Below, in pieces: positions 10,911 to 28,688 of a stretch of DNA of 64,000 nucleotides. The notes below the pieces were generated by a model. The model was given only the letters and a program-made list of their open reading frames with translations. It ran no database searches and was not told the origin of the DNA. The DNA comes from Streptomyces sp. NBC_00224 (GTDB lineage: Bacteria > Actinomycetota > Actinomycetes > Streptomycetales > Streptomycetaceae): positions 2,852,001 to 2,916,000 of the forward strand of contig NZ_CP108106.1 of NCBI RefSeq assembly GCF_041435195.1, read 5' to 3'. Within the stretch, counting starts at the first letter, position 1. Each line of letters opens with the position of its first letter. The translations under genes were made by a program, and so were the position numbers.

Positions 10911-10918
10911 TCTGATCC

Positions 10919-12674: not shown

Positions 12675-12678
<4 letters not shown>
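11809..12678 (+). CDS. ABC importer permease 2
   Basis: 289-residue second permease, with six transmembrane segments and an EAA loop (LVEAARDLGASWPRAIVSVVLPNL). The ATG at 11809 lies inside the end of permease 1 and has an AAGGAG site 6 bases upstream, so translation is coupled. An upstream in-frame extension is only antiphase sequence of permease 1. The Lys-rich C-terminus (DKTKKEAGA) faces the cytoplasm. Confidence 0.9.
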
Positions 12679-13729
<1,051 letters not shown>

Positions 13730-13733
<4 letters not shown>

Positions 13734-14380: not shown

Positions 14381-14420
14381 CGGGCAGTTGACGGGGACAG
14401 GAACGGGGACGGGGAACGAC

Positions 14421-15179
14421 ATGGCAGGCAAGGCGGCGCCGCTGTACCGGAAGGTGGCCGGCGATCTGCGGGCGGCCATCACCGCCGGGGAGTACGGGTC
14501 GGGGGCGCGGCTGCCCGCCGAGGACGAACTCGCCCGTACCTACGGCGTGTCCAGGGGCACGGTCCGCCAGGCGCTCGCCGCGCTGCGGGCCGACGGTCTG
14601 GTCACCTCGCGGCGCGGGGCGCGGCGGGTGGTGCTCGGCGGGGGCGGGACGCGGCTCCAGAGCTTCGAGGAGCTGCGGTCGTTCGCGCGCTGGGCGCGCT
14701 CGCAGGGCGAGGAGCCGGGCGGCCGGACGGTCGCGGTGGATCCGGGCGGGGCGACCGAGGAGGAGGCGTACCACCTGCGACTCCCGGTCGGGGAGCGGAT
14801 CTTCCGCGTCCTTCGGGTCCGTACGCTCTCCGGGACCCCGGTGATGGTGGAGCGCACGACCTACCCGGAGCGGGTGGGCGAGCTGGTGGCGGCGATGGAC
14901 CCGGGCCTCGCCTCCCACGCCGACGAGCTGGAGGCGCACGGGGTGCTGTTCAGCGACGCCCTGCACACGATCGACGTGGTCCCGGCGGACGCCGCCGACG
15001 CGGAGCTGCTCGGCTGCCGGGCCGGTGACGGCCTGCTGCGCGAGCGCCGCCGCTCCACCGACCCGGCCGGCCTGCCGCTGGAGTGGTCCCAGGACCGCTA
15101 TCTGCCGGGCACGGTGGCGTTCACCGTCCGGAACTCGTCGGGGTCGAGGGCGATGGGCAGGAGCCTCAACGGCTCGTGA
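14421..15179 (+). CDS. GntR-family regulator with UTRA domain
   Basis: 252-residue HutC/PhnF-type repressor. The N-terminal winged helix-turn-helix (LYRKVAGDLRAAITAG; GVSRGTVRQALAALRADG) is followed by a UTRA effector-binding domain (ERIFRVLRVRTLSGTPVMVERTTYP; LEWSQDRYLPG). I chose ATG 14421, which gives the conserved N-terminus and has GGGGA upstream; an in-frame start 33 bases earlier encodes a Thr-Gly repeat. It lies 40 bases after the HAD gene in the same direction. The probable target is the tandem operator at 9691-9719, with a phosphorylated ligand as inducer by analogy to PhnF-type proteins. Confidence 0.88.
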   Translation: MAGKAAPLYRKVAGDLRAAITAGEYGSGARLPAEDELARTYGVSRGTVRQALAALRADGLVTSRRGARRVVLGGGGTRLQSFEELRSFARWARSQGEEPGGRTVAVDPGGATEEEAYHLRLPVGERIFRVLRVRTLSGTPVMVERTTYPERVGELVAAMDPGLASHADELEAHGVLFSDALHTIDVVPADAADAELLGCRAGDGLLRERRRSTDPAGLPLEWSQDRYLPGTVAFTVRNSSGSRAMGRSLNGS

Positions 15180-15222: not shown

Positions 15223-15630
15223 TCAGCAGCCGTGGTCGACCAGGTCGAACGTCGCGTAGTGGTCCGAGGTGTAGTAGTCCTGGTCGGTCTGCTGTCCGGT
15301 GACGATGCGGCGGGCGCCGCGCGTCGGGGAGCCGGGCGTCTTCACGGTGTACTCGTGGTAGTAGCCGCTCGACTCCGACGGCAGCACGTGCTCGCGGTTG
15401 GAGAAGACGACGCCGTCCTGGGAGTACGGGAACGGGCCGCCCTTGTCGATGAGCCGCAGCGTGTCGTACGCCTGCGAGGGCAGGTCGGAGTAGCAGATGC
15501 TGCCGACGCTCTGTACGGACACCGTCGACGAGGCGGCCGCGGTGGCCGGAAGTGCGGCCGGGCCGAGGAGGAGGGTGGCGGCGAGAGTGGCTATTCCGCC
15601 GAGCGTGGTGATGCGTGGGGGGATTCTCAT
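15223..15630 (-). CDS. secreted guanyl-specific ribonuclease (RNase Sa type)
   Basis: 135-residue precursor of a microbial guanyl RNase that cleaves single-stranded RNA 3' of G. The signal peptide runs to about residue 32. Spacing of the catalytic residues matches RNase Sa exactly: Glu93, Arg104, Arg108 and His124 (RNase Sa Glu54, Arg65, Arg69, His85). The single disulphide pair Cys46-Cys135 also matches (Cys7-Cys96). The stretch GPFPYSQDGVVFSNRE is strongly conserved. No barstar-like inhibitor gene is adjacent. No good ribosome-binding site precedes the ATG. Confidence 0.95.
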   Translation of the reverse strand: MRIPPRITTLGGIATLAATLLLGPAALPATAAASSTVSVQSVGSICYSDLPSQAYDTLRLIDKGGPFPYSQDGVVFSNREHVLPSESSGYYHEYTVKTPGSPTRGARRIVTGQQTDQDYYTSDHYATFDLVDHGC

Positions 15631-16304: not shown

Positions 16305-17186
16305 TCACCCCGCCCCGTACACCGCCCCCGGCACCTCCGCCTCCCCCAGCAGCCGTCGGGCCGCCTCGCCCGCCTCCGCCGGGGTCCAGCGGGCCCCCTT
16401 GTCCGCCGTCGGACCTGCGCGCCAGCCCTCCATGACCGTGATGCGGCCCCCCTCCGCCTCGAAGACCCGGCCCGTCACGCCCTCGCTCGCCGCCGAGCCG
16501 AGCCACACCACCAGCGGCGACACGTCCTCCGGCGCGGCCGCGAGGCCGGTGAAGACCCGCTCGGTCATCCGGGTGCGCGCCGCCGGGGCGATCGCGTTGA
16601 CCTGGACGCCGTACCGCGCGAGCTCCGCCGAGGCCACCAGGGTGAGGCCGACGATCCCGGCCTTGGCCGCCGCGTAGTTCCCCTGGCCCACACTGCCGAG
16701 CAGACCCGCGCCCGAGGTCGTGTGGACGACCCGGGCGACCGGACGGCGGCCCGCCTTGGACTCGGCGCGCCAGTGCGCCGCCGCCTCCCGCAGCGGCAGG
16801 AAGTGACCCTTGAGGTGGACCCGGAGGACCGCGTCCCAGTCGTCCTCGTCGAGGTTGACCAGCATCCGGTCGCGCAGGAAGCCCGCGTTGCTCACCAGCG
16901 TGTCCAGGCGGCCGAAGTGGTCGAGGGCCGCTTCGACGAGGGAGGCCGCTCCCTTCGCCGTCGCGATGTCCCCGCCGTGCGCGACCGCCTCGCCGCCCGC
17001 CGTACGGATCTCGGCGGCGACCCGCTCGGCCGGGCTGCCGGGGGCCGGGGCGCCGTCGAGGCCGACGCCGAGGTCGTTGACGACGACCTTCGCCCCCTCG
17101 GCCGCGAACGCCAGGGCGTGCGCACGGCCGAGCCCCCGCCCCGCCCCGGTCACCACGACGACCCGTCCCGCACTGCTGTCCGTCAT
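16305..17186 (-). CDS. SDR-family hydroxyacyl-CoA dehydrogenase of the steroid locus
   Basis: 293-residue short-chain dehydrogenase with the Rossmann motif VVVTGAGRGLGRAHA, NAG motif (VSNAGFLRD) and catalytic Ser/Tyr/Lys (HTTSGAG; GNYAAAKAG). The length and the NDLGVGLDG insertion fit the family of multifunctional-enzyme-2-like 3-hydroxyacyl-CoA dehydrogenases. It is second in a minus-strand pair, 1 base after the other SDR, and corresponds in position to Rv3548c of M. tuberculosis (recalled synteny). It probably oxidises a hydroxyacyl-CoA intermediate of steroid C/D-ring breakdown, substrate unproven. Confidence 0.85.
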   Translation of the reverse strand: MTDSSAGRVVVVTGAGRGLGRAHALAFAAEGAKVVVNDLGVGLDGAPAPGSPAERVAAEIRTAGGEAVAHGGDIATAKGAASLVEAALDHFGRLDTLVSNAGFLRDRMLVNLDEDDWDAVLRVHLKGHFLPLREAAAHWRAESKAGRRPVARVVHTTSGAGLLGSVGQGNYAAAKAGIVGLTLVASAELARYGVQVNAIAPAARTRMTERVFTGLAAAPEDVSPLVVWLGSAASEGVTGRVFEAEGGRITVMEGWRAGPTADKGARWTPAEAGEAARRLLGEAEVPGAVYGAG

Positions 17187-17187
17187 C

Positions 17188-17967
17188 TCAACTCCCTTGC
17201 CGCTCGGGCGATTTGTTGACCGTGGCCGCGTCCAGGAACGCCGGGCGCTCGCCGCCGCCGTGGACCAGGAGGGACGCGCCGGTGATGTACGCGGCCCGGC
17301 CGGAGGCGAGGAAGACGGCCGCCTCCCCCACCTCGTCCGGCTCGGCGAGGCGACCGAGGGGCACGGTCCGGGCGACGGCCGCGACGCCTTCCTCGTCCCC
17401 GTAGTGCAGCTGCGCGAGCTCGGTGCGGACCATGCCCAGGACGAGCGTGTTGACCCGCACCCCGGGCGCCCACTCCACCGCCATCGAGCGGGCCAGGTTC
17501 TCCAGGCCCGCCTTGGCGGCGCCGTACGCGGCGGTGCCGGGCGAGGCGCGCGTACCGCTGACGCTGCCGATCATCACCACCGAGCCGCCGGACGCCCGCA
17601 GATGCGGGTACGCGGCGAGCGAGGCGGTGAGCGGCGCGGTGAGGTTGAGCTCCACCACGCGCGCGTGACGCTCGGCGGACGACTCCCCGAGGAGGCGGTA
17701 GGGCGTGCCGCCCGCGTTGTTGACCAGCACGTCGAGGTGCCCGTACGCCGCCGCGACCGCGTCGAAGAACTCCCGTACGGCGGAGGGTTCGCGCAGGTCG
17801 AGCGGGCGGAACTCGGCCTCCCTGCCCCCCGCTTCGACCGGCCGCTCCGGTGGCCTGCGGGCGCAGACCACCACCTCGGCGCCCGCCGCGAGGAACGCCC
17901 GCGCGATGCCCGCGCCGACGCCCCGGGTGCCGCCCGTGACGACCGCCGCCTTCCCGGCCAGCTCCAT
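17188..17967 (-). CDS. SDR-family oxidoreductase of the steroid locus
   Basis: 259-residue classical SDR: nucleotide-binding TGGTRGVGAGIA, NNAG motif (LVNNAGGTPY), catalytic Ser (IGSVSG) and Tyr-x-x-x-Lys (AAYGAAKAG). It is the first gene of a two-gene minus-strand unit transcribed away from echA20, with which it shares a 56-base promoter region holding a KstR2-like palindrome. Gene position equals Rv3549c of M. tuberculosis. A role in NAD(P)-dependent oxidation of an HIP-CoA-derived intermediate is inferred from context. Confidence 0.85.
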   Translation of the reverse strand: MELAGKAAVVTGGTRGVGAGIARAFLAAGAEVVVCARRPPERPVEAGGREAEFRPLDLREPSAVREFFDAVAAAYGHLDVLVNNAGGTPYRLLGESSAERHARVVELNLTAPLTASLAAYPHLRASGGSVVMIGSVSGTRASPGTAAYGAAKAGLENLARSMAVEWAPGVRVNTLVLGMVRTELAQLHYGDEEGVAAVARTVPLGRLAEPDEVGEAAVFLASGRAAYITGASLLVHGGGERPAFLDAATVNKSPERQGS

Positions 17968-17988
17968 CCGCTGCTACCTTCCCTACCT

Positions 17989-18002
17989 AACAAATGTTTG
18001 GT
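17989..18002. promoter_or_regulatory. KstR2-like operator in the SDR/echA20 divergent promoter
   Basis: On the minus strand the site reads ACCAAACATTTGTT, with perfect CAAA/TTTG arms. It differs at one base from the site at 26428-26441 and resembles the mycobacterial KstR2 motif AnCAAGnnCTTGnT. It lies between divergent catabolic genes, where a repressor could control both. Confidence 0.75.
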
Positions 18003-18023
18003 GGAAAGGTAGCTGATCCGCTC

Positions 18024-18788
18024 ATGGGTGTCTCCACCACCGGCCCCGAGAAGGGGATTTCCCTCGTCACCGTCGACTTCCCGCCCGTCAACGCGCTTCC
18101 CGTGCACGGCTGGTACGAGCTGGCCGACGCCGTGCGCACGGCCGGGCGCGACCCCCGGATCCGCTGTGTCGTCCTGGCCGCCGAGGGGCGCGGCTTCAAC
18201 GCCGGGGTCGACATCAAGGAGATGCAGCGCGACCCCGGCCACAGCGCGCTCATCGGCGCCAACCGGGGCTGTTACGAGGCCTTCGCGGCGGTGTACGAGT
18301 GCGAGGTGCCGGTGGTCGCGGCGGTGCAGGGGCACTGCCTGGGCGGCGGGATCGGCCTGGTCGGCAACGCCGATGTGGTGGTCGCGAGCGAGGACGCCAC
18401 CTTCGGGCTGCCCGAGCTGGACCGGGGCGCGCTCGGCGCCGCCACCCATCTGGCCCGGCTCGTCCCCCAGCACCTGATGCGCGCGCTCTACTACACCTCG
18501 CGGACGGCCACGGCCCGGGAACTGCTGGCCCACGGATCGGTGTGGAAGGTCGTCCGGCGGTCCGAACTCCTCGACTCCGCCCTGGAGTTGGCGCGTGAGA
18601 TCGCCCGCAAGGACGGCTCGCTGATCCGGCTGGCCAAGGCCGCCATCAACGGCATCGACCCCGTCGACGTCCGCCGCAGCTACCGCTTCGAGCAGGGCTT
18701 CACGTTCGAGGCCAACCTCAGCGGCGTGGCCGACCGGGTCCGCGACACCTTCGGCGAGCAACCGGGGAAGGGGAGGGAGCGGGCATGA
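18024..18788 (+). CDS. echA20: enoyl-CoA hydratase/isomerase family ring-D hydrolase (EchA20-like)
   Basis: 254-residue crotonase-fold protein. It shows the oxyanion-hole segments (GFNAGVDIKEMQ; QGHCLGGGIGLVGNADVVVA) and the C-terminal helical region. By position between the SDR pair and ipdAB it matches EchA20 (Rv3550), a crotonase that hydrolytically opens steroid ring D of HIEC-CoA. The ATG at 18024 gives the conserved start; an upstream in-frame ATG lies inside the operator palindrome. Its stop overlaps the ipdA start (ATGA), so the four genes echA20-ipdA-ipdB-ipdC are translationally coupled. Confidence 0.85.
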   Translation: MGVSTTGPEKGISLVTVDFPPVNALPVHGWYELADAVRTAGRDPRIRCVVLAAEGRGFNAGVDIKEMQRDPGHSALIGANRGCYEAFAAVYECEVPVVAAVQGHCLGGGIGLVGNADVVVASEDATFGLPELDRGALGAATHLARLVPQHLMRALYYTSRTATARELLAHGSVWKVVRRSELLDSALELAREIARKDGSLIRLAKAAINGIDPVDVRRSYRFEQGFTFEANLSGVADRVRDTFGEQPGKGRERA

Positions 18789-19633
18789 CGGACAAGACCA
18801 TGACGCCCGAGGAGGTCGTCGCGCGGCTGCACAGCGGCATGACCCTCGGCATCGGCGGCTGGGGCTCGCGCCGCAAGCCGATGGCGCTGGTCAGGGCGCT
18901 GCTCAGAGCGCCGGTGACGGATCTGACGGTGATCTCGTACGGCGGCCCGGACGTCGGCCTGCTCGCGGCCGCCGGAAGGATCCGCAGACTGGTCGCCCCC
19001 TTCGCCACCCTCGACTCCATCCCGCTGGAGCCGCACTTCCGCGCGGCGCGCGAGGCGGGGGCGTTCACGCTGACGGAGATCGACGAGGCGATGTTCATGT
19101 GGGGGCTGCACGCGGCCGCCAACCGGCTGCCCTTCCTGCCGGTACGGGCCGGACTCGGCTCGGACGTCATGCGGGTCAACCCCGGTCTGCGGACGGTGAC
19201 TTCGCCGTACGAGGACGGGGAGACGTTCGTGGCCGTGCCCGCGCTCCACATGGACGCGGCCCTGGTCCACCTCAACCGCGCCGACCGGCTCGGCAACGCC
19301 CAGTACCTGGGCCCCGACCCCTACTTCGACGACCTGTTCTGCGAGGCCGCCGACAGCGCGTACGTCTCCTGCGAACGTCTCGTCGAACCGGGCGGCTTCG
19401 CGGACGCCGTCCCGCAGACCCTCCTCGTCGGACGCCACTCGGTCACGGGCGTCGTCGAGGCGCCGAACGGGGCGCACTTCACGTCGTGCGTACCGGACTA
19501 CGGGCGGGACGAGCCGTTCCAGAAGCTGTACGCGACGACGCCGTGGGACGAGTTCGCCACGCGGTTCCTGGCGGGGCCGGACGAGAAGAGCTACCAGTCG
19601 GCCGTCCAGGCCTGGCACGAGGAGGTCCGATGA
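18785..19633 (+). CDS. ipdA: COCHEA-CoA hydrolase alpha subunit (IpdA)
   Basis: 282-residue class I CoA-transferase-like alpha subunit. IpdAB opens the last steroid ring (ring C) by hydrolysing COCHEA-CoA, using a CoA-transferase fold. Sequence support: the N-terminal GMTLGIGGWGSRRKPMALVRALL segment typical of the family, the GLGSDVMRVNPGLRTVTSPYEDGE region and ALVHLNRADRLGNAQYLGPD. Overlaps at both ends (ATGA with echA20 and ATGA with ipdB) indicate stoichiometric synthesis with the beta subunit. A generic 3-oxoacid CoA-transferase is the alternative, but gene context argues for IpdA. Confidence 0.88.
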   Translation: MTDKTMTPEEVVARLHSGMTLGIGGWGSRRKPMALVRALLRAPVTDLTVISYGGPDVGLLAAAGRIRRLVAPFATLDSIPLEPHFRAAREAGAFTLTEIDEAMFMWGLHAAANRLPFLPVRAGLGSDVMRVNPGLRTVTSPYEDGETFVAVPALHMDAALVHLNRADRLGNAQYLGPDPYFDDLFCEAADSAYVSCERLVEPGGFADAVPQTLLVGRHSVTGVVEAPNGAHFTSCVPDYGRDEPFQKLYATTPWDEFATRFLAGPDEKSYQSAVQAWHEEVR

Positions 19634-20367
19634 CGGACTCGACCGTGGTGATCAGCCGCGCCGAGTACTGCGTGATCGCCTGCGCCGAGGCGTGGCGCGG
19701 CGACGGGGAGGTGCTGGCCAGTCCGATGGGCCTGATCCCGTCGCTCGGCGCGCGGCTGGCCCGGCGCACCTTCGCCCCGGACCTGCTGCTCACCGACGGC
19801 GAGGCGACGCTGGTCGGGGCGGACGGGGCGGCCGAGGGCTGGCTGCCGTACCGCCGCCATCTGACCATGGTCACCGGGGGCAGACGGCACGTGATGATGG
19901 GCGCGAGCCAGATCGACCGGTTCGGCAACCAGAACATCTCCTGCATCGGCGACTGGGCGGCGCCCACCCGCCAGTTGCTCGGGGTGCGCGGCGCCCCCGT
20001 CAACACCCTCAACAACCCGGTGAGTTACTGGATCCCGCGCCACTCCCCCCGGGTGTTCGTACCCGAGGTCGACATGGTGTGCGGCGTCGGCTACGACCGG
20101 GCGGCCGCCGCCGGGGCGCGTTACCACCGCATCCCCCGGGTCGTCAGCGACCTCGGCGTCCTCGACTTCGCCACACCCGGCCGCACGATGCGGCTGGCGT
20201 CGCTGCACCCCGGGGTGACGGTGGAACGGGTACGCGCGGCGACGGGCTTCGAGCTGACGGTGGAGGACAAAGTCCCGTACACGCGAGATCCGACTACTGA
20301 AGAACTGCACCTGATACGAGAGGTGCTGGACCCGGAGGGGCGGCGCGACGGGGAGGTCCGTCGCTGA
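19630..20367 (+). CDS. ipdB: COCHEA-CoA hydrolase beta subunit (IpdB)
   Basis: 245-residue beta subunit of the CoA-transferase-like heteromer. The segment VMMGASQIDRFGNQNIS is characteristic of IpdB and related beta subunits, and EVDMVCGVGYDR and the C-terminal VEDKVPYTRDPTTEEL region also fit. It starts inside the ipdA stop codon and its own stop overlaps the ipdC start. Together with IpdA it should hydrolyse the ring-C diketone CoA thioester. Catalytic residue assignment would need alignment. Confidence 0.88.
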   Translation: MTDSTVVISRAEYCVIACAEAWRGDGEVLASPMGLIPSLGARLARRTFAPDLLLTDGEATLVGADGAAEGWLPYRRHLTMVTGGRRHVMMGASQIDRFGNQNISCIGDWAAPTRQLLGVRGAPVNTLNNPVSYWIPRHSPRVFVPEVDMVCGVGYDRAAAAGARYHRIPRVVSDLGVLDFATPGRTMRLASLHPGVTVERVRAATGFELTVEDKVPYTRDPTTEELHLIREVLDPEGRRDGEVRR

Positions 20368-21434
20368 TGGAGACGGCACTGACCCGCCTGGTGGGGGTGC
20401 GGCACCCGATCGTACAGACGGGGATGGGGTGGGTGGCCGGTCCCCGTCTGGTGTCGGCCACGGCCGAAGCCGGGGCGCTGGGCATCCTCGCCTCGGCGAC
20501 GATGACCACGCGGGAGCTGCGCGCGGCGGTACGGGAGGTCAAGTCGCGTACGGACGCGCCGTTCGGGGTGAATCTGCGGGCGGACGCGGGGGACGCACGG
20601 GAGCGGGTGCGGATCATCGTGGAGGAGGGGGTACGGGTGGCGTCCTTCGCGCTCGCCCCCTCGCGGGAGCTGATCGCCTCGCTCAAGGACGCCGGGGTGG
20701 TGGTCGTGCCGTCCGTCGGGGCGCGGCGGCACGCCGAGAAGGTGGCGGCGTGGGGCGCGGACGCGGTGATCGTGCAGGGCGGGGAGGGCGGCGGGCACAC
20801 CGGCGAGGTGGCGACGACGGTCCTGCTGCCGCAGGTCGTGGACGCGGTGGACATCCCGGTGGTGGCGGCCGGGGGCTTCCACGACGGGCGCGGGCTCGTG
20901 GCGGCGTTGGCGTACGGGGCGGCGGGGGTCGCGATGGGCACGCGGTTCCTGCTCACGTCGGACTCTCCGGTGCCGGATGCGGTGAAGGCGCGGTATCTGG
21001 CGGCGGGGGTGTCCGATGTGATCGTGACGCGGGCGGTGGACGGGTTGCCGCACCGCATGCTCCGCACGGAGCTGGTGGCGTCGCTCGAACGGGCCGGGCG
21101 GGTGCGTTCGCTGGTCTCGGCCGTGCGGCACGCGGCGGCGTTCCGCTCGCTGTCGGGCTCGTCGTGGGCCCGCCTCGTCGCGGACGGCCGCGCGCTGCGC
21201 CACGGCAAGGACCTGACGTGGAGTCAGGTGCTGCTCGCGGCGAATACGCCGATGCTGCTGCGGGCGTCGATGGTGGAGGGGCGGGTGGAGGCGGGGGTGA
21301 TGGCGTCGGGGCAGGTGGCGGGGGTGATCGAGGATCTGCCGAGTGTGGGGGAGCTGGTGGGGCGGGTGATGCGGGAGGCGACGGCGACGCTGTCGACCCT
21401 CCGGGACCTGGGCCCCACCCCGCCCCTTCCCTAA
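20367..21434 (+). CDS. ipdC: IpdC-like FMN oxidoreductase (nitronate monooxygenase family)
   Basis: 355-residue TIM-barrel flavoprotein of the nitronate monooxygenase/enoyl reductase family: HPIVQTGMGWVAGPRLVSATAEAG at the N-terminus, GGEGGGHTGE and VVAAGGFHDGRGLVAALAYGA as FMN phosphate-binding segments. In the mycobacterial locus IpdC acts on a hydroxylated HIP-derived CoA ester. It ends the plus-strand operon. Its last residues (GPTPPLP and stop) are written by a copy of the 38-bp repeat seen at 46211, 49162 and 63264, so the native C-terminus may have been replaced. Confidence 0.85.
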   Translation: METALTRLVGVRHPIVQTGMGWVAGPRLVSATAEAGALGILASATMTTRELRAAVREVKSRTDAPFGVNLRADAGDARERVRIIVEEGVRVASFALAPSRELIASLKDAGVVVVPSVGARRHAEKVAAWGADAVIVQGGEGGGHTGEVATTVLLPQVVDAVDIPVVAAGGFHDGRGLVAALAYGAAGVAMGTRFLLTSDSPVPDAVKARYLAAGVSDVIVTRAVDGLPHRMLRTELVASLERAGRVRSLVSAVRHAAAFRSLSGSSWARLVADGRALRHGKDLTWSQVLLAANTPMLLRASMVEGRVEAGVMASGQVAGVIEDLPSVGELVGRVMREATATLSTLRDLGPTPPLP

Positions 21435-21450
21435 ACCCTCCGGGGGTGGG
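21412..21450 (-). repeat. GC-rich 38-bp repeat, inverted copy at the ipdC 3' end
   Basis: The minus strand reads as the unit CCACCCCCGGAGGGTTT then AGGGAAGGGGCGGGGTGG. It matches copies at 46211-46252, 49162-49200 and 63264-63303. The ipdC stop codon (21432-21434) is inside it. Confidence 0.75.
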
Positions 21451-21543
21451 AGGGGGGTGGAGGTGGGCTTTCCCGGGGGCTACGCCCCCGGACCCCCGGG
21501 CGGGGCTGCGCCCGGCCGCCGTTCGCCTGCGGGCCGTCCGTGG

Positions 21544-21643
21544 CTGGTCGCGCAGTTCCCCGCGCCCCTCAAATGCCGCTGCGCGCCATCCCCTGGGCGC
21601 CCCGGAGGGGCGCTTCCAGGGGCGCGGGGAACTGCGCGACCAG
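21544..21643. repeat. dispersed inverted repeat, copy 3
   Basis: Perfect 26-base arms 21544-21569 and 21618-21643 with a small internal GCGCCCCGGAGGGGCGC hairpin. It lies between the convergent ipdC and helicase genes, 109 and 85 bases past their stops. The rest of 21435-21728 holds only GGGGCGAAGCCCC-type short palindromes. Confidence 0.9.
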
Positions 21644-21728
21644 CCCCCACCGGGCCCGCAGACAAACACGGGGCCCGGGGCGAAGCCCCGCAACGGGGTG
21701 TGGGGGCTGAAACCGGTGGAAGATCCGG

Positions 21729-23321
21729 CTACGCCGGCGTGCTGCGGCGGCCGCCCGACTGGGGGCGGCCACGGCGCGCGCCGCCGGCCTGGGCGCGGGC
21801 GCCCTGGGACTGGGCACCCCGGGCCGCGCCCTGGGACTGCCCACCCCGGCCACCCTGGGCGGAGCCCTGCGTGCGGCCACCCTGGGTGGAGCCCTGCGTA
21901 CGGGCGCCCTGGGACTGGCCCGTGCGGCCCGACGACGTGCGGGAGCCCGAGCGGGCGCCCCGGCTCCGGGTGCGGGTACCCGACGGCGGCGTCGGGGCGG
22001 GGACCTCGACCACGACCGGCACGCCGGACGGCTCGCGCGCGCCCGTGACCCGTACCAGCTCCTCGTCGCTCGACTTCACCGCCGCCGTCCGGGGACGGAT
22101 CCCCGCGAACGTCATCAGACGGCTCATCTCGCGCTTCTGCTCGGGCAGGACCAGCGTCACGACGCTGCCCGACTCGCCCGCGCGGGCGGTGCGGCCGCCC
22201 CGGTGGAGGTAGTCCTTGTGGTCCGTGGGCGGGTCGACGTTGACGACCAGGTCGAGGTCGTCGACGTGGATGCCGCGCGCCGCCACGTTCGTCGCGACGA
22301 GCGCGGTGACCTGGCCGTTCTTGAACTGCTCAAGGGTGCGGTTGCGCTGCGGCTGGGAGCGGCCGCCGTGCAGGCCCCCCGCCCGTACGCCGCTCGCGAG
22401 CAGCCGCTTGACCAGCCGGTCGACCGAACGCTTGGTGTCCAGGAACATGATCACCCGGCCGTCGCGCGCCGCGATCCGCGCGGTGACGGCCTTCTTGTCG
22501 GTCTCGTCCTGGATGTAGAGGACGTGGTGTTCCATCGTCGTGACCGCGCCCGCCGACGGGTCCACCGAGTGGACGACCGGGTCGGTCAGGAACATGCGGA
22601 CCAGGCGGTCGATGTTCTTGTCCAGGGTCGCCGAGAACAGCATCCGCTGACCACCCGGCTCCACCTGCTTCAGCAGCGCCACGACCTGCGGCATGAAGCC
22701 CATGTCGGCCATCTGGTCGGCCTCGTCGAGCACGGTGATCCGCACCTGGCCGAGCACGCAGTCGCCGCGCTCTATGAGGTCCTTGAGACGGCCGGGCGTC
22801 GCCACGAGCACCTCGGCGCCGCGCCGCAGCGCGTTCGCCTGCTTGGTGAGCGAGAGCCCGCCCACGACCGTGGTCAGGCGCAGGTTGACGGCCGTGGCGT
22901 ACGGCGTCAGCGCGTCGGTGACCTGCTGGGCCAGCTCACGCGTCGGCACGAGTACGAGGGCGAGCGGCGCCTTCGGCTCGGCGCGGTGGCCGGCCGTACG
23001 GGCGAGGAGCGCGAGGCCGAAGGCGAGGGTCTTGCCCGAGCCCGTGCGGCCCCGGCCGAGGATGTCGCGGCCCGCGAGGGAGTTCGGCAGGGTCGCGGCC
23101 TGGATCGGGAACGGCTCGGTGACGCCCTGCGCGGCCAGCGTCTTGAGGAGCGCCGCGGGCATGTCGAGGTCGTCGAAACCGGCCACCGAGGGCAGCGCGG
23201 GCGTGACCGTTTCCGGCAACGTGAATTCGCCCTGCGGCTGCACGGTCCGGCCGCGCGCGGCGTTCGCGGCGGGCTTGGCGGAGCTGGAGGTGGAGCGCTT
23301 GCGGGGGGTCATACGCGTCAT
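21729..23321 (-). CDS. DEAD-box RNA helicase with disordered Q/G/R-rich tail
   Basis: 530-residue ATP-dependent RNA helicase. Core motifs in order: Q-motif (PFPIQAATLP), Walker A GRTGSGKT, PTRELAQQV, TPGRL, DEAD in VLDEADQM, SAT, VATNVAARGIHVDDL, and HRGGRTARAG. The last 120 residues are a low-complexity tail of repeated QSQGAR, TQGG and QGSAQGG units with RGG-like pieces, likely RNA-binding and disordered. The ATG at 23321 has AGGAAGG about 10 bases upstream. It follows a cold-shock protein gene in the same direction, fitting a role in unwinding structured RNA in the cold. It interrupts the steroid locus and has no catabolic role that I can see. Confidence 0.93.
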   Translation of the reverse strand: MTRMTPRKRSTSSSAKPAANAARGRTVQPQGEFTLPETVTPALPSVAGFDDLDMPAALLKTLAAQGVTEPFPIQAATLPNSLAGRDILGRGRTGSGKTLAFGLALLARTAGHRAEPKAPLALVLVPTRELAQQVTDALTPYATAVNLRLTTVVGGLSLTKQANALRRGAEVLVATPGRLKDLIERGDCVLGQVRITVLDEADQMADMGFMPQVVALLKQVEPGGQRMLFSATLDKNIDRLVRMFLTDPVVHSVDPSAGAVTTMEHHVLYIQDETDKKAVTARIAARDGRVIMFLDTKRSVDRLVKRLLASGVRAGGLHGGRSQPQRNRTLEQFKNGQVTALVATNVAARGIHVDDLDLVVNVDPPTDHKDYLHRGGRTARAGESGSVVTLVLPEQKREMSRLMTFAGIRPRTAAVKSSDEELVRVTGAREPSGVPVVVEVPAPTPPSGTRTRSRGARSGSRTSSGRTGQSQGARTQGSTQGGRTQGSAQGGRGGQSQGAARGAQSQGARAQAGGARRGRPQSGGRRSTPA

Positions 23322-23364
23322 ACGGAAATTGCCTTCCTGGGCCCGGTGGACGGACAGCACGCAA

Positions 23365-23399
23365 GCCGGGACCCGCACCTGCGCGGTGCGGGCCCCGGC
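23365..23399 (-). terminator. hairpin between csp and helicase genes
   Basis: 14-base arms 23365-23378 and 23386-23399; the single mismatch is a G-U pair in the minus-strand transcript. It lies 17 bases after the csp stop and probably limits readthrough or stabilises the csp mRNA. Confidence 0.65.
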
Positions 23400-23415
23400 T
23401 CGGAATTCGCCGTGA

Positions 23416-23619
23416 TCAGGCGGGGAGGATGTTCTCCGCCTGCAGGCCCTTCTGACCCTGGGTGACCTCGAAGGAGACCTTCTGGCCCTCAAGGAGCTCA
23501 CGGAAGCCGGAGGAGGCGATGTTCGAGTAGTGGGCGAAGACGTCCGGGCCGCCACCGTCCTGCTCGATGAAGCCGAAGCCCTTTTCCGAGTTGAACCACT
23601 TCACGGTGCCAGTAGCCAT
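23416..23619 (-). CDS. cold-shock protein (CspA family)
   Basis: 67-residue single OB-fold nucleic-acid-binding protein. RNP1 is KGFGFIEQ and RNP2 is [18 protein letters not shown] at the start is the family signature. The ATG at 23619 has AGGAG about 7 bases upstream; an in-frame start 10 codons earlier gives a non-conserved extension. It probably acts as an RNA chaperone or antiterminator. A 9-bp hairpin lies in its leader and a strong hairpin follows its stop. The helicase downstream may be co-transcribed at reduced level. Confidence 0.95.
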
Positions 23620-23674
23620 GTCATTCTCCTGAATAGGTAGGGGCCCCATCCGGAGAAAGCCGGAAAAACAATAA

Positions 23675-23704
23675 TGCGCCTGAGGAACATTCCCGTCAGG
23701 CGCA
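23675..23704 (-). promoter_or_regulatory. hairpin in the csp 5' leader
   Basis: Perfect 9-base arms TGCGCCTGA and TCAGGCGCA around 12 bases, ending 55 bases upstream of the csp ATG in an AT-rich stretch. It could be a temperature-responsive leader element. A terminator for the fadA6 side is unlikely because fadA6 is transcribed away from its own stop at 23808 towards this site, so it could also end that transcript. Confidence 0.4.
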
Positions 23705-23807
23705 CATAAAGTCTATGGGTACCAAAACTGCAACGGAGAAACTGTACCACGTCACCCCCTCAGGGGCAGGTGCGGCCGTGTGGGCCGCACCACTCCCCCG
23801 GGCCCGG

Positions 23808-24965
23808 TCAGAGGCGCTCGATCACCGTCACGTTCGCCTGGCCACCGCCCTCGCACATCGTCTGGAGGCCGAGGCGGCCGCCCGTGCGCTCCAGCTCGTG
23901 CAGCAGCGTCGTCATCAGCCGTACACCGGTGGCCCCCAAAGGGTGACCGAGCGCGATGGCGCCCCCGTTGACGTTGACCTTCGCCGGGTCCGCGCCGGTC
24001 TCCTTCAGCCAGGCGAGCACCACCGGCGCGAAGGCCTCGTTGATCTCGACCAGGTCGATCGCGTCGATCGTCAGGCCCGTCTTCTTCAGCGCGTACGCCG
24101 TCGCCGGGATCGGCGCCGAGAGCATTCGGATGGGGTCCTCGCCACGTACCGAGAGGTGGTGGATCCGGGCGCGCGGGGTGAGCCCGTGCTCCCGTACGGC
24201 CCGCTCGCTCGCCAGGAGCATCGCCGCCGCGCCGTCCGAGACCTGGGAGGAGCACGCGGCGGTGATCGTGCCGCCCTCGACGACCGGCTTCAGGGCGGCC
24301 ATCTTCTCCGGGGTCGTGTCGCGGCGCGGCCCCTCGTCGACGCGCACGTCGCCGTACGGCACGGTCTCGCGTACGAAACGGCCCTCGTCGACCGCCCGGA
24401 TCGCGCGCCGGTGCGAGCGGAGCGCGAACTCCTCCTGGTCCTGGCGGCTGATCCCCCACTTGTGCGCGATGAGCTCGGCGCCGTGGAACTGGTTGACCGG
24501 CTGGTCGCCGTACCGCGCCCGCCAGCCGGCCGAGCCGGCGAACGGGCCCTCGGTCAGGCCGAGCGGCTCGGCCGCCTGCCGGGAGGCGAAGGCGATCGGG
24601 ATCATCGACATGTTCTGGGTGCCGCCCGCGACCACCAGGTCCTGGGTGCCGGAGAGCACGGCCTGCGCGGCGAAGTGCACGGCCTGCTGGGACGAGCCGC
24701 ACTGGCGGTCGACGGTGACGCCCGGCACCTCCTGCGGCAGCCCGGCCGCCAGCCACGCCGTCCGCGCGATGTCCCCGGCCTGCGGCCCGACCGCGTCGAG
24801 GCAGCCGAAGACGACGTCCTCGACGGCGGCCGGGTCGATCCCGCAGCGCTCGACGAGCGCGCCGAGCACATGCGCCCCCAGATCCGCCGGATGGACGCCC
24901 GCGAGCCCGCCCCCGCGCCGCCCCACCGGGGTGCGCACCGCTTCGACTATGTATGCCTCGGCCAT
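23808..24965 (-). CDS. fadA6: thiolase, FadA6-like acetyl-CoA acyltransferase
   Basis: 385-residue thiolase that would cleave a 3-ketoacyl-CoA produced after steroid ring opening. The nucleophile is Cys89 (DRQCGSSQQA), with NEAFAP, His in GGAIALGHPLGATG and the second catalytic Cys in QTMCEGGGQANVT. It is third in the minus-strand unit SDR-tetR-thiolase, 27 bases after tetR. The homologous position in M. tuberculosis is fadA6 (Rv3556c) next to kstR2 (Rv3557c), which supports the name. Confidence 0.87.
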   Translation of the reverse strand: MAEAYIVEAVRTPVGRRGGGLAGVHPADLGAHVLGALVERCGIDPAAVEDVVFGCLDAVGPQAGDIARTAWLAAGLPQEVPGVTVDRQCGSSQQAVHFAAQAVLSGTQDLVVAGGTQNMSMIPIAFASRQAAEPLGLTEGPFAGSAGWRARYGDQPVNQFHGAELIAHKWGISRQDQEEFALRSHRRAIRAVDEGRFVRETVPYGDVRVDEGPRRDTTPEKMAALKPVVEGGTITAACSSQVSDGAAAMLLASERAVREHGLTPRARIHHLSVRGEDPIRMLSAPIPATAYALKKTGLTIDAIDLVEINEAFAPVVLAWLKETGADPAKVNVNGGAIALGHPLGATGVRLMTTLLHELERTGGRLGLQTMCEGGGQANVTVIERL

Positions 24966-24992
24966 TCCCGACTCCCTTGACCTGCCAGCGGA

Positions 24993-25607
24993 TTACTCTC
25001 GTACGGCGATTCCGTCCAGCACCATCGACAGGTACTGGCGGGCGATCTCCTCCGGGCTGTGCTGTCCGCCGGGCCGGTACCAGGACGCGGCCACCCACAC
25101 CGTGTCGCGGACGAACCGGTAGGTGAGCCGGACGTCCAGGTCCGCGCGGAACGCGTTCGCCGCGACCCCGCGCTCCAGGGTCCCCAGCCACGCCTGTTCG
25201 AACTTCCGCTGCGAGTCGGCGAGGTAGCCGAAGCGCGGCAGCGCGGTGAGGTGCCTGGACTCCTTCTGGTAGATCGCGACGGCGGCCCGGTGCCGGTCGA
25301 TCTCCCGGAAGGACTCGGTGACCAGGGCCTCGATGGTCTCGCGCGGGCCGAGCCCGGCCGCGAGGACGGCGTCGTACCCCTCCCACAGCTCGGTCAGGAA
25401 GGTGGAGAGGATCTCGTCGAGCATCGATTCCTTGGAATCGAAGTGGTAGTAGAGGCTGCCCGCGAGCATGCCCGCCTCGTCGGCGATCCTGCGGACGGTG
25501 GTGGCGTTGTAGCCCTGGGCGGCGAACACCTCGGCCGCGGTGGCGAGGAGTTCTCCGCGCCGCTCGGGCACGGCGGTCACCTGGGGCTTCTTCTTGTTCG
25601 CTGGCAC
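24993..25607 (-). CDS. kstR2: TetR-family repressor, KstR2-like
   Basis: 204-residue TetR regulator. The N-terminal helix-turn-helix (RRGELLATAAEVFAAQGYNATTVRRIADEAGMLAGSLYYHF in pieces) is typical, followed by an all-helical ligand domain. Gene context (between an IpdF-like SDR and a FadA6-like thiolase) is that of KstR2, which represses HIP-catabolic genes and is released by HIP-CoA. The two near-identical palindromes at 17989 and 26428 are its probable operators, making it autoregulatory through the second. Spacing to both neighbours is under 30 bases. Confidence 0.82.
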   Translation of the reverse strand: MPANKKKPQVTAVPERRGELLATAAEVFAAQGYNATTVRRIADEAGMLAGSLYYHFDSKESMLDEILSTFLTELWEGYDAVLAAGLGPRETIEALVTESFREIDRHRAAVAIYQKESRHLTALPRFGYLADSQRKFEQAWLGTLERGVAANAFRADLDVRLTYRFVRDTVWVAASWYRPGGQHSPEEIARQYLSMVLDGIAVRE

Positions 25608-25622
25608 GCGCCCATTCTGGCC

Positions 25623-26411
25623 CTACGCGTGCTGGCTGCTGACGGCGACGACTTCGCCGGTCATGTACGAGGAGTAGTCGCTGGCCAGGAAGACGACGAC
25701 GTTGGCCACCTCCCACGGCTCGGCGTACCGCCCGAAGGCCTCCCGCGCGGCGAGTTCGTCGAGGAGCTCGGCGGAGGTGACCTTGGCGAGGTGGGGGTGC
25801 ATGGCGAGGGAGGGCGAGACCGCGTTGACCCGCACTCCGTGGGCGGCCGCCTCGATCGCCGCGCAGCGGGTGAGCGCCATGACGCCCGCCTTGGCGGCGG
25901 CGTAGTGGGCCTGCCCGGCCTGGGCGCGCCAGCCGACGACGGACGCGTTGTTGACGATCACGCCGCCCCGGCCGGCGGCTCGATAGGCGCGCAGGGCCGC
26001 CCTGGTGCACCGGAAGGTGCCGTTGAGGGTGACGTCGAGGACCCGGTCCCACTGCTCGTCGCTCATGTCGGCCAGCTCGGCCGTGCCGCCCAGGCCCGCG
26101 TTGTTGACGACGACGTCGAGGCGGCCGTGGAGCCGTACCGCCTCGGCGAAGAGCGCGCGCACCTGTGCGTCGTCGGTGACGTCGCAGGGCAGCGCGGCCA
26201 CGGCGCCGGCGCCGAACTCGGCCGCCAGGGCCTCCTCGGTCTCCTTGAGCCTGCGCGCGTGCGCGTCGCTCACCAGCACCCGCGCGCCCTCCTCAAGGAA
26301 CCTGCGGGCGGTCGCGCCGCCGATCCCGGCCCCGGCGGCGGCGGTGACGACGGCGGTGCGGCCGTCGAGGAGACCGTGCCCGGGCACGTACGGAACCTTG
26401 TTGTCGGTCAC
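25623..26411 (-). CDS. ipdF: SDR-family oxidoreductase, IpdF-like
   Basis: 262-residue SDR. The cofactor loop is AAAGAGIGGATARRF, with NNAG (VVNNAGLGG) and the catalytic Ser (NASVVGW) and Tyr-x-x-x-Lys (HYAAAKAG). The N-terminus VPYVPGHGLLDGRTAVVT is distinctive. It is the first gene of the minus-strand unit ending in fadA6 and shares a divergent promoter region with the acyl-CoA dehydrogenase genes. Rv3559c (IpdF) occupies the same place near kstR2 in M. tuberculosis and acts as a hydroxyacyl-CoA dehydrogenase; that function is inferred here from position. Confidence 0.8.
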   Translation of the reverse strand: MTDNKVPYVPGHGLLDGRTAVVTAAAGAGIGGATARRFLEEGARVLVSDAHARRLKETEEALAAEFGAGAVAALPCDVTDDAQVRALFAEAVRLHGRLDVVVNNAGLGGTAELADMSDEQWDRVLDVTLNGTFRCTRAALRAYRAAGRGGVIVNNASVVGWRAQAGQAHYAAAKAGVMALTRCAAIEAAAHGVRVNAVSPSLAMHPHLAKVTSAELLDELAAREAFGRYAEPWEVANVVVFLASDYSSYMTGEVVAVSSQHA

Positions 26412-26427
26412 GTCCGCAGGCTAACCT

Positions 26428-26441
26428 ACCAAACACTTGTT
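26428..26441. promoter_or_regulatory. KstR2-like operator in the ipdF/fadE30 divergent promoter
   Basis: ACCAAACACTTGTT matches the motif AnCAAGnnCTTGnT at all but one specified base and differs from the 17989 site at one base. A further palindrome, GAACGCTTGTTC, follows at 26445-26456, giving a repeated CTTGTT half-site. Confidence 0.78.
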
Positions 26442-26487
26442 AGGGAACGCTTGTTCAGGGAACGGTCGCGAAGGGGCGGGCCCCGCA

Positions 26488-27636
26488 ATGGACTTGGACC
26501 ACACGGCCGAGGAGGACGCCTTCCGCGCCGAGGCGCGGGCGTGGCTCGCCGCCCATGTGCCGGCCGCGCCGCTCCCCTCCCTGGAGACGGCGGAGGGCTT
26601 CGCCGCGCACCGGGAGTGGGAGGCCGGGCTGTACGCCGGGCGCTGGTCGGCCGTCTCCTGGCCCGAGCGGTTCGGGGGCCGGGGCGCCGACATCTTCCGG
26701 TGGCTGGCCTTCGAGGAGGAGTACTGGGCGGCGGGCGCGCCCGGCCGGGTCTCCCAGAACGGCATCAGCCTGCTCGCACCGACGCTCTTCGACCACGGTA
26801 CGGAGGAACAGCGCGCCCGGGTGCTGCCGGACATGGCGAGCGGGGCGGTGGTGTGGGCGCAGGCCTGGTCGGAGCCGGAGGCCGGGTCCGACCTGGCGTC
26901 GCTGCGGTCCCGGGCCGTGCGCACGGACGGGGGCTGGCTGCTTTCGGGCCAGAAGACGTGGTCGTCGCGGGCCGCGTTCGCCGACCGCGCCTTCGGCATC
27001 TTCCGTACGGACCCGGCGGCGCCCCGGCCCCACCAGGGCCTGACCTACGTGATGTTCGACCTGCGGGCCCCCGGAGTCACCGTCCGCCCGATCGGCCGCC
27101 TCGACGGCAGGCCGGCGTTCGCGGAGCTGTTCCTGGACGAGGTGTTCGTCCCCGACGAGGACGTCATCGGGGAGCCGGGGCAGGGCTGGCGCATCGCGAT
27201 GTCCACGACCGGCAACGAGCGCGGGCTGACCCTGCGCTCCCCCGGCCGCTTCCTGGCCGCCGCCGACCGGCTCGTACGGCTGTGGCGCGAGCGCGGCGAG
27301 GACCGCGGGGCGCGCGACCGGGTGGCGGACGCAGTGATCGGGGCGCGGGCCTATCAGCTGTTCACGTACGCGGGCGCGTCCCGCTTCGCGGCGGGCGGGG
27401 AGATGGGCGCGGAGTCGAGCCTGAACAAGCTGTTCTGGTCGGAGTACGACATCGCGCTGCACGAGACGGCGCTGGAACTGCTGGGCGCGGAGGGCGAGTT
27501 GGCCCAGTCGCCCGACGGCTGGGGAGAGGGATACGTCTTCGCGCTCGCCGGACCCGTCTACGCCGGTACGAACGAGATCCAGCGCGACATCGTCGCCGAG
27601 CGCCTGCTCGGCCTCCCGAAGGGCCGCCCCCGATGA
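26488..27636 (+). CDS. fadE30: acyl-CoA dehydrogenase, FadE30-like
   Basis: 382-residue FAD-dependent acyl-CoA dehydrogenase: N-terminal helical domain, FAD-contacting WAQAWSEPEAGSDLASL and WLLSGQKTWSS, C-terminal helical domain ending YAGTNEIQRDIVAERLLGLPKG. The position of the medium-chain enzyme catalytic Glu is Ala here, so the base must come from elsewhere, as in other steroid FadE enzymes. The gene begins a plus-strand pair divergent from ipdF. By synteny with Rv3560c it would dehydrogenate the propionate side chain of HIP-CoA. ATG 26488 gives the conserved start with AAGGGG upstream. Confidence 0.82.
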   Translation: MDLDHTAEEDAFRAEARAWLAAHVPAAPLPSLETAEGFAAHREWEAGLYAGRWSAVSWPERFGGRGADIFRWLAFEEEYWAAGAPGRVSQNGISLLAPTLFDHGTEEQRARVLPDMASGAVVWAQAWSEPEAGSDLASLRSRAVRTDGGWLLSGQKTWSSRAAFADRAFGIFRTDPAAPRPHQGLTYVMFDLRAPGVTVRPIGRLDGRPAFAELFLDEVFVPDEDVIGEPGQGWRIAMSTTGNERGLTLRSPGRFLAAADRLVRLWRERGEDRGARDRVADAVIGARAYQLFTYAGASRFAAGGEMGAESSLNKLFWSEYDIALHETALELLGAEGELAQSPDGWGEGYVFALAGPVYAGTNEIQRDIVAERLLGLPKGRPR

Positions 27637-28688
27637 GGTTTCTGCCGACCGCCGAGCAGCGCGACTTCACCCGCTCCCTGGACGCGCTCCTGACCGCCTC
27701 GGACACCCCGTCGGCCGTCCGGTCCTGGTCGGCCGGGGACCACGGGCCCGGCCGGGCACTGTGGGCGCGGCTCGCCGGGGCGGGAGTGTTCGCGCTCGCG
27801 GCGCCGGAGGCGTACGACGGGATGGGCCGCCGCCCGGTCGAACTCGCCATGGCTTATCGGGAGTTGGGCCGTCACGCGGTGCCGGGACCGCTGGTGGAGA
27901 CGGCGGCGACGACGGCCCTGCTGTGCCACCTGGCGGACGGCGGCGACCCCGCCCCGGCCAAGCGCCTGCTGCCGGGCCTGCTCACGGGCGAGCGCGTCGT
28001 CACGCTGGCGGTGCCGGACGGGGAGGGCGGGGGGTACGTGCTGGATCCGGACGGGGCGAATGTGGTGCTGGTGGCGACGGGGGCGGGCGGGGCGGAAGAG
28101 GCCAGGGCGTTGCACCCCGGCCGCCGCCTCGCGTCCACCCCCGCCCCCGAGCTCCGGCTCGCCCCCGGCCACGGCCCCCTCCTCGCCTCCCTCGACCCGG
28201 CGCGGCGGCTCGCGCGCCCGGACCCCGGAGGGGAACTCCTCTCCACCGGTCCCCTGTTGGCGGAGGCGATCGGGTGCGCGGTGCGCTGGGCCCGGCTCGC
28301 GGCGGCCGCCCAGGCGGTCGGGGTGGCCGAGGAACTGCTGCGGCGGACCGTCGCGTACGTCAAGCAGCGCACCCAGTTCGGGGTGCCGATCGGCTCGTTC
28401 CAGGCGGTCAAGCACCGGCTCGCGGACACGCTGCTCGCGGTGGAGTTCGCGCGGCCGCTGGTGTACGGGGCGGCACTCACCCTCGCCCCGGGCGACCTCG
28501 CGGCGGCAAAGGCGACGGCGGGCGAGGCCGCGTACACGGCGGCCCGGACCGCGCTCCAGCTCCACGGCGCGATCGGCTACACCGAGGAACTGGACCTCTC
28601 CCTCTGGCTCCGCAAGGCGCGCCCACTACGCGACACCTGGGGCACACCGGCCGCCTGCCGGGCGGAGGTACTGGCGGCGTACTCCTAG
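27633..28688 (+). CDS. acyl-CoA dehydrogenase, partner subunit
   Basis: 351-residue acyl-CoA dehydrogenase-fold protein, shorter than usual. N-terminal segment FLPTAEQRDFTRSLDALL; C-terminal RTQFGVPIGSFQAVKHRLAD and ALQLHGAIGYTEELDLSLWLRKA are typical, but the central beta domain is reduced (only about 90 loosely conserved residues). Its ATG overlaps the previous stop (ATGA). Paired ACAD genes of unequal length commonly encode alpha2beta2 steroid dehydrogenases, so a heteromer with the upstream enzyme is likely. Its stop codon overlaps that of the convergent vWA gene at the palindrome CTAG. Confidence 0.82.
   Translation: MRFLPTAEQRDFTRSLDALLTASDTPSAVRSWSAGDHGPGRALWARLAGAGVFALAAPEAYDGMGRRPVELAMAYRELGRHAVPGPLVETAATTALLCHLADGGDPAPAKRLLPGLLTGERVVTLAVPDGEGGGYVLDPDGANVVLVATGAGGAEEARALHPGRRLASTPAPELRLAPGHGPLLASLDPARRLARPDPGGELLSTGPLLAEAIGCAVRWARLAAAAQAVGVAEELLRRTVAYVKQRTQFGVPIGSFQAVKHRLADTLLAVEFARPLVYGAALTLAPGDLAAAKATAGEAAYTAARTALQLHGAIGYTEELDLSLWLRKARPLRDTWGTPAACRAEVLAAYS

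Follow-up and report, generated by a model that had tools for sequence, protein, structure and literature searches.

The bicyclic acid HIP holds steroid rings C and D, and the closest described system for its degradation is the KstR2 regulon. The accessible text of Kendall et al. (2010, PMC3068626) gives the KstR2 motif as AnCAAGnnCTTGnT, reports that KstR2 binds three intergenic regions, including Rv3549c/Rv3550 and Rv3560c/Rv3561, and describes kstR2 and its regulon as highly conserved among actinomycetes. The survey of Bergstrand et al. (2016, PMC4810484) was based on eight enzymes (KstD, KshA and HsaA, C, D, E, F and G). A genome had to have at least six of them, with KshA and HsaC/TesB among these, and 55 of 57 Streptomyces genomes were reported to lack pathways; since only ring A/B enzymes were scored, the survey is blind to genomes that carry only the C/D part. 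A streptomycete that accumulates MOODA when grown on HIP was described in 1977 (Hashimoto and Hayakawa, as cited in the accessible part of Crowe et al., 2017, PMC5380842). Here we analyze a 64,000-nucleotide stretch of Streptomyces sp. NBC_00224, hereafter the window (C1:2852001-2916000 of a 9.18 Mb genome in three contigs), in which eleven genes at positions 16305-28688 (Table 1) are probably the Streptomyces form of the KstR2 regulon. We expect this locus to encode degradation of HIP, rings C and D, in a strain that scavenges the C/D part alone.

All eleven genes appear in the ORF listing as uninterrupted frames, in the order first described. An earlier annotation made from the sequence alone (the first-pass annotation) had claimed that their set and order mirror the KstR2 regulon, and the family and structure matches bear this out. 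Identities were taken from NCBIfam models with curated cut-offs, Pfam and comparisons with PDB structures, and on these matches the presence of KstR2 regulon homologues together with two acyl-CoA dehydrogenases is confirmed. EchA20, IpdC, FadA6 and IpdF, as the HIP pathway requires, are all in the cluster. The gene order is kept across the 23 ipd stretches compared, most identities being 55-91%, and the window IpdB is 93% identical to that of Streptomyces sp. NPDC058301 and 92% to that of S. melanogenes. From its position, we take the first SDR to be the Rv3548c counterpart. For echA20, the start at 18024 is more likely than the one at 17994, because the NF005925 match begins at residue 11 and the predicted operator overlaps the upstream ATG. 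A simple gene caller based on codon GC recovered nine genes but not ipdB and the second dehydrogenase, whose reading frames remain open well upstream; it is too coarse for use alone.

The two divergent promoters of the locus, SDR/echA20 and ipdF/fadE31, each carry a predicted KstR2 site of the form ACCAAACA(T/C)TTGTTAGG, which resembles the published motif. The context of the site at 26428..26444, GCTAACCTACCAAACACTTG, is identical at all but one of 20 bases to the KstR2-bound probe of the Mycobacterium tuberculosis Rv3560c/Rv3561 region, as given in the accessible text of PMC3068626. A whole-genome pattern search with up to three mismatches returns two sites, both exact and both in the locus. 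At the same tolerance, the operator is present wherever the promoter could be tested in sequence fetched from other genomes of the genus, at the echA20 promoter in 23 of 23 cases and at the ipdF promoter in 17 of 17. A loose motif scan of the window, with 25 matches at up to two mismatches against 5.54 expected, is too coarse alone.

IpdA and IpdB are clearly separated from the CoA-transferases. Against glutaconate CoA-transferase they reach only 93.5 and 56.6 bits, respectively, compared with 317.3 and 279.5 bits against 6co6, which we take to be the M. tuberculosis or Rhodococcus IpdAB. In the B-subunit tree, a transferase-like pair of the same genome (C1:7.304 Mb) groups with the Haladaptatus and Sinorhizobium pairs. 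In the alignment, Glu101 (E101) of the window IpdA falls on the glutamate position at which the otherwise matching 6coj chain has alanine. This residue is kept in the IpdAs of Streptomyces BHT-5-2, Tsukamurella, Novosphingobium, Vibrio and Nocardia farcinica (the last with MDEGM), and is not found in the three transferase-like A subunits compared (Haladaptatus, Sinorhizobium and the own-genome paralogue). The 6co6 scores, the B-subunit tree and the residue comparison thus rule out an ordinary 3-oxoacid CoA-transferase, a kinship that the first-pass annotation had named as a reason to abandon its reading. The gene that follows the own-genome paralogue (paralogue at C1 ~7304460) resembles by eye a protocatechuate dioxygenase subunit, and the paralogue is perhaps part of a 3-oxoadipate CoA-transferase.

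The two acyl-CoA dehydrogenases were named by comparison with the steroid region of N. farcinica, where FadE30 adjoins IpdF, and FadD3 and an EchA13-like gene are followed by FadE31, FadE32 and FadE33. These position names follow in part a gene table in PMC5380842. The IpdE2 model matches the gene at the FadE33 position with 296 bits, under its cut-off of 450, in agreement with the naming by position; FadE30 and FadE33 are IpdE1 and IpdE2, respectively (PMC8708139, accessible text). By identity, the window dehydrogenases are FadE31-like and FadE32-like, and the same comparison finds no fadE30, fadD3 or fadE33 in the window locus. On the second dehydrogenase, the IpdE2 model gives 135.9 bits, far under the cut-off. 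The later fadE genes, stated at first to be absent from the window, are therefore the ones retained. The cluster of Streptomyces sp. BHT-5-2 keeps FadE30-, FadE33- and EchA13-like genes; a search of the 30.7 kb fetched from that strain gave no FadD3 match.

The expectation that fadD3 lies elsewhere in the genome holds. A FadD3-family gene is found at C1:4324198-4325889, 1.45 Mb from the ipd locus (NF005801, 797.9 bits against a cut-off of 657). It matches N. farcinica FadD3 with 521.8 bits and 52% identity at C1:4324222-4325769, the runner-up in the genome scoring 283.2 bits. In a small tree, four other ligases of the genome form one group (support 0.995); outside it fall N. farcinica FadD3, the steroid-cluster FadD3 of two genomes with an HsaC-like gene, and the present FadD3. 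Its assignment as FadD3 is at the level of the family. Since its closest solved relative is a feruloyl-CoA synthetase (257.5 bits), structure does not fix the substrate. An Ltp2-like gene is divergent from fadD3 (NF005892, 544.1 bits, cut-off 469; PDB 6ok1, 319.5 bits) and is followed by a zf-ChsH2/OB_ChsH2_C (DUF35) protein of 147 residues. We take 6ok1 to be a Thermomonospora curvata protein. A citation in PMC8708139 is consistent with this.

The FadD3–Ltp2–DUF35 trio is kept in all ten FadD3-positive genomes chosen for comparison, with Ltp2 at 91-93% identity. Neighbours recur in the 20 kb stretches compared, some of which end early: a TetR_C_38 gene (10/10), an Amidohydro_2 gene (8/10) and an IpdE2-like dehydrogenase (6/10). 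In the genome studied here, the surroundings include a luciferase-type gene, an F420H2-dependent reductase, an FMO-like flavoprotein and an HsaB-like flavin reductase. The fadD3/ltp2 promoter contains the palindrome CTGACTnnCCGTCAGATTAGC in 11 of 11 sequences, our own and the ten chosen. Genome-wide, it has one exact site and one with three mismatches, the control giving none. Our guess is that the nearby TetR_C_38 protein binds CTGACTnnCCGTCAGATTAGC, as a similar site precedes its own gene. KstR2 control of FadD3 was rejected, since no KstR2 site with up to three mismatches was found there; the palindrome CTGACTnnCCGTCAGATTAGC is a different one. The flavin reductase (C1 ~4348527) shows 51% identity with N. 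farcinica HsaB across 154 residues, in a genome with no convincing HsaC, and an island-type operator-like site lies just upstream of it. We also considered whether the island is the S. coelicolor SCO4383-SCO4386 cluster. The accessible text of PMC12093943 describes that cluster as a CoA ligase, an enoyl-CoA hydratase, a TetR protein and an unknown gene, and the identity was rejected because the gene sets differ, by description only.

Ring A/B genes are not evident in this genome. The best HsaC hit is one partial match of 30.9 bits, and the family search returns none at E ≤ 1e-20; KshA gives partial matches only, of 55.5 bits (query residues 58-183) and 23.5 bits. No recognisable KstD was found among the best six of 39 PF00890 matches, which were scanned without a direct search by a KstD reference; the remaining 33 score 32.3 bits or less. 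The six are SdhA, NadB, two SdhA/fumarate-reductase types, an NF009472 'FAD-binding dehydrogenase' and a ThiO-like protein under its cut-off. The NF009472 protein, nearest in kind to KstD, reaches just 32.7 bits to the solved KstD (4c3x). The single mce operon (C1:7.333 Mb) is unlinked, and its YrbE genes are 52 and 48% identical to those of N. farcinica mce4. The first-pass annotation, which would have yielded to a lack of other steroid genes, fares unevenly here: FadD3 and the Ltp2–DUF35 pair are present, whereas the searches turned up no HsaC, no KshA and no recognisable KstD. Its proposal that the strain degrades the last two rings stands in part, as a KstR2-type HIP locus is supported and HIP degradation is plausible from the genes; growth on whole steroids is not implied, because those three ring A/B enzymes were not found.

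The genus was surveyed in 295 genomes drawn evenly from it, our own included. IpdB is present in 212 (E ≤ 1e-40) and missing from 83. The island FadD3 occurs in 200 genomes at E ≤ 1e-200, all IpdB-positive; relaxing the cut to E ≤ 1e-130 raises the count to 208, of which 206 are IpdB-positive. Ltp2 (E ≤ 1e-150) occurs in 202, again all IpdB-positive, and 199 genomes hold all three. No genome exceeds the curated 450-bit cut-off of the HsaC model. HsaC-family matches at E ≤ 1e-20 occur in 75 genomes (67 IpdB-positive and eight IpdB-negative), and 26 genomes, all IpdB-positive, have an HsaC-like gene of 330 bits or more, a line of our own choice at the gap between 330.6 and 290 bits. Among the IpdB-positive genomes, 186 lack a match at this line and 145 lack any at E ≤ 1e-20.

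Nine of the HsaC-like-positive genomes were examined, and the fetched stretches of all nine contain HsaA, HsaB, HsaC, KshA and HsaF matches, the HsaA of one (G152) at just 39%. HsaG is found in eight, and the ninth stretch ends before its position. Since the same references detect these A/B clusters in nine of nine genomes, divergence within the genus does not hide them. In five of the nine, a single fetched stretch of 20-40 kb contains both the cluster and ipdABC. At least two settings of the ring A/B cluster can be told apart, one close to ipdABC and one in which the 20 kb fetched contain no ipd gene, a hint of separate acquisition. In two HsaC-like-positive genomes (G100 and G285), a second FadD3-family gene in the steroid cluster is 54-56% identical to the island FadD3 of our genome.

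With the order of steps taken from the HIP pathway in the accessible parts of PMC5380842, PMC8708139 and PMC9782250, the locus would act as follows. First, FadD3, encoded 1.45 Mb away, would make HIP-CoA, which would free KstR2 from its two operators so that the two divergent promoters open. IpdF would reduce the 5-oxo group, and an acyl-CoA dehydrogenase pair, possibly standing in for IpdE1–IpdE2, would desaturate. EchA20 would open one ring, IpdC would serve as a reductase and IpdAB would open the other ring hydrolytically. Finally, FadA6, FadE31/FadE32 and the SDRs would complete β-oxidation. Because FadD3 and the ipd genes are present and no ring A/B genes are visible, the probable growth substrates of the strain are HIP or HIP-like acids made by other organisms and not intact steroids, a use that the 1977 report of growth on HIP fits.

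Several observations weigh against this assignment. The reversed control pattern matched three times against two for the operator at up to three mismatches (the mismatches of the control matches are not shown), so the argument for the operator is the exact fit of its two sites and where they lie, and not how many there are. No KstR2 operator was found at FadD3, nor anywhere in the genome outside the locus at that tolerance, and the island FadD3 may act on another acid, because HsaC-like-positive genomes can carry a second FadD3 in the steroid cluster. The locus has no orthologue of IpdE1 or IpdE2 (FadE30 and FadE33), for which no genome-wide search was made; the dehydrogenases near FadD3 are just 37-42% identical to FadE30 or FadE33, and the FadE30 candidate among them is almost equally close to FadE31. 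The ring A/B negative for the whole genome covers HsaC, KshA and KstD, and does not extend to HsaA, HsaD and HsaE-G. In the survey, two IpdB-negative genomes have a FadD3-family match at E ≤ 1e-130, 12 of the 212 IpdB-positive genomes lack a strict FadD3 and ten lack Ltp2, and 41 carry weaker, unexamined HsaC-family matches. The co-occurrence counts ignore shared ancestry; the Fisher p-values (below 1e-60) are therefore set aside.

Of the other explanations, the one that survives best holds that the ipd locus and the FadD3–Ltp2 island act on something other than steroids, for instance a hydrindane terpenoid or a different bicyclic acid. It would account for the 186 IpdB-positive genomes without a strong HsaC-like match and for the constant partner, an Ltp2–DUF35 pair that is under its own operator and outside the described HIP pathway. 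We consider it unlikely, however, as the locus retains the HIP signature enzymes except IpdE1–E2, the KstR2-type operators and the active-site glutamate of IpdA, and a streptomycete has been reported to grow on HIP (PMC5380842, accessible text). Slightly less likely again is degradation of intact steroids by ring A/B enzymes too diverged or too unrelated for the HsaC, KshA and KstD searches. The Ltp2–DUF35 pair, the luciferase-like gene, the FMO-like flavoprotein and the HsaB-like flavin reductase of the FadD3 island would fit such a route, as would the mce operon, although the role of Mce4-type uptake is putative, and the accessible text of PMC6678751 lists Streptomyces among the steroid degraders of older isolations. 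The same references nevertheless recover A/B clusters in every HsaC-like-positive genome examined and give only the 30.9-bit HsaC and 55.5-bit KshA matches in our own. That the locus is a decaying remnant of an ancestral whole-steroid pathway, as FadE30, FadD3 and FadE33 outside the cluster and the key A/B genes not found might suggest, is very improbable given uninterrupted frames, operators at every testable promoter, and the order and identities kept across 23 ipd stretches.

Under the preferred reading of a C/D-ring locus, a wider scheme can be put forward tentatively, although we would not expect it to hold in full. The C/D-ring pathway may be the common, older part in Streptomyces, with ring A/B as an accessory addition. 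The KstR2-type ipd locus and the TetR_C_38-linked FadD3–Ltp2–DUF35 island would then be co-inherited and together form a single pathway for scavenging bicyclic 'des-A,B' steroid acids with a ring-D side chain, which the Ltp2–DUF35 aldolase would remove before HIP-CoA enters the ipd pathway.

Table 1. Features of the ipd locus, with positions in the window and the supporting matches.
Feature	Position	Strand	Evidence or remark
SDR oxidoreductase, Rv3548c-like	16305..17186	-	NF005861, 435.6 bits (cut-off 373); 63% to N. farcinica gene at equivalent position
SDR oxidoreductase, Rv3549c-like	17188..17967	-	NF005893, 368.9 bits (cut-off 255); 56% to N. farcinica
Predicted KstR2-type operator ACCAAACATTTGTTAGG	17986..18002	-	divergent SDR/echA20 promoter
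echA20, enoyl-CoA hydratase family	18024..18788	+	NF005925, 412.9 bits (cut-off 260); 69% to N. farcinica; ORF reaches 17994
ipdA, COCHEA-CoA hydrolase alpha subunit homologue	18785..19633	+	6co6_A, 317.3 bits
ipdB, COCHEA-CoA hydrolase beta subunit homologue	19630..20367	+	6co6_B, 279.5 bits
ipdC homologue, nitronate monooxygenase-type flavoprotein	20367..21434	+	PF03060, 288.8 bits; 66% to N. farcinica gene at equivalent position
DEAD-box RNA helicase	21729-23555	-	between ipdC and fadA6; unrelated to pathway
fadA6, thiolase	23808..24965	-	NF005865, 693.9 bits (cut-off 591); 67% to N. farcinica
kstR2, TetR-family repressor	24993..25607	-	KstR2 structures 4w97 and 4w1u, 189.4 bits; 2ibd, 221 bits; 57% to N. 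farcinica
ipdF, SDR	25623..26411	-	NF005880, 447.2 bits (cut-off 336); 69% to N. farcinica
Predicted KstR2-type operator ACCAAACACTTGTTAGG	26428..26444	+	divergent ipdF/fadE31 promoter
fadE31-like acyl-CoA dehydrogenase, not fadE30	26488..27636	+	64.6% to N. farcinica FadE31-position gene, 38.6% to FadE30-position gene
fadE32-like acyl-CoA dehydrogenase	27633..28688	+	45.3% to N. farcinica FadE32-position gene, 35.4% to FadE33-position gene

The helicase has a counterpart in 13 of the 23 fetched ipd stretches and none in the others, some of which end early. Upstream of the locus, the plus strand at 9741-15179 may be a phosphonate-type uptake operon: it encodes a solute-binding protein, two permeases, an ATPase, a HAD hydrolase and a GntR/UTRA regulator, whose PhnF-type match is under its cut-off. 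A small protein with a microbial ribonuclease domain (PF00545) follows at 15223-15627 on the minus strand.

If HIP or related acids are consumed, common soil bacteria would act as downstream scavengers in steroid turnover, and the 1977 growth of a streptomycete on HIP would gain a genetic basis. Such strains, which are non-pathogenic, could allow HIP catabolism to be studied apart from rings A/B, and what Streptomyces use an orphan C/D-ring gene set for becomes a testable question. When the genus is scored on a C/D enzyme, 212 of 295 genomes hold IpdB, of which between 145 and 186, according to the cut-off applied, show no HsaC-like gene.

Compared with the KstR2 regulon of M. tuberculosis H37Rv, Mycobacterium smegmatis and Rhodococcus jostii RHA1, as described in the accessible text of PMC3068626 and PMC5380842, the window locus shares homologues of Rv3548c, Rv3549c, EchA20, IpdABC, FadA6, KstR2, IpdF, FadE31 and FadE32, as well as the divergent SDR/echA20 promoter with a KstR2-type operator. 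It differs in lacking FadD3, FadE30 and FadE33, the FadD3 being unlinked and under another operator, in the inserted helicase gene and in a genome where no ring A/B genes were found. Saccharopolyspora hirsuta VKM Ac-666T provides a precedent for unlinked fadD3, which lies outside its ipd cluster; the difference is that S. hirsuta is a cholesterol degrader equipped with genes for rings A/B and for the side chain, among them ltp2, chsH1 and chsH2 (PMC8708139, accessible text). Within the genus, the 26 HsaC-like-positive genomes share IpdB with the window genome, whereas the nine examined also encode HsaA, HsaB, HsaC, KshA and HsaF. The gene beside FadD3 resembles Ltp2 of the Ltp2–ChsH2(DUF35) steroid side-chain aldolase in its match to 6ok1 and in the zf-ChsH2/OB_ChsH2_C protein next to it, but the island DUF35 protein appears to lack the MaoC hydratase part, because its 147 residues have no further Pfam match. 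No report of C/D-only Streptomyces genomes was found in the open literature, as far as its accessible text extends, and novelty is tempered because actinomycete-wide conservation of the kstR2 regulon has already been stated (PMC3068626). In summary, the kind of system is known, and the variant that appears new is its division into two loci, without recognisable ring A/B genes, as a common feature of a large genus.

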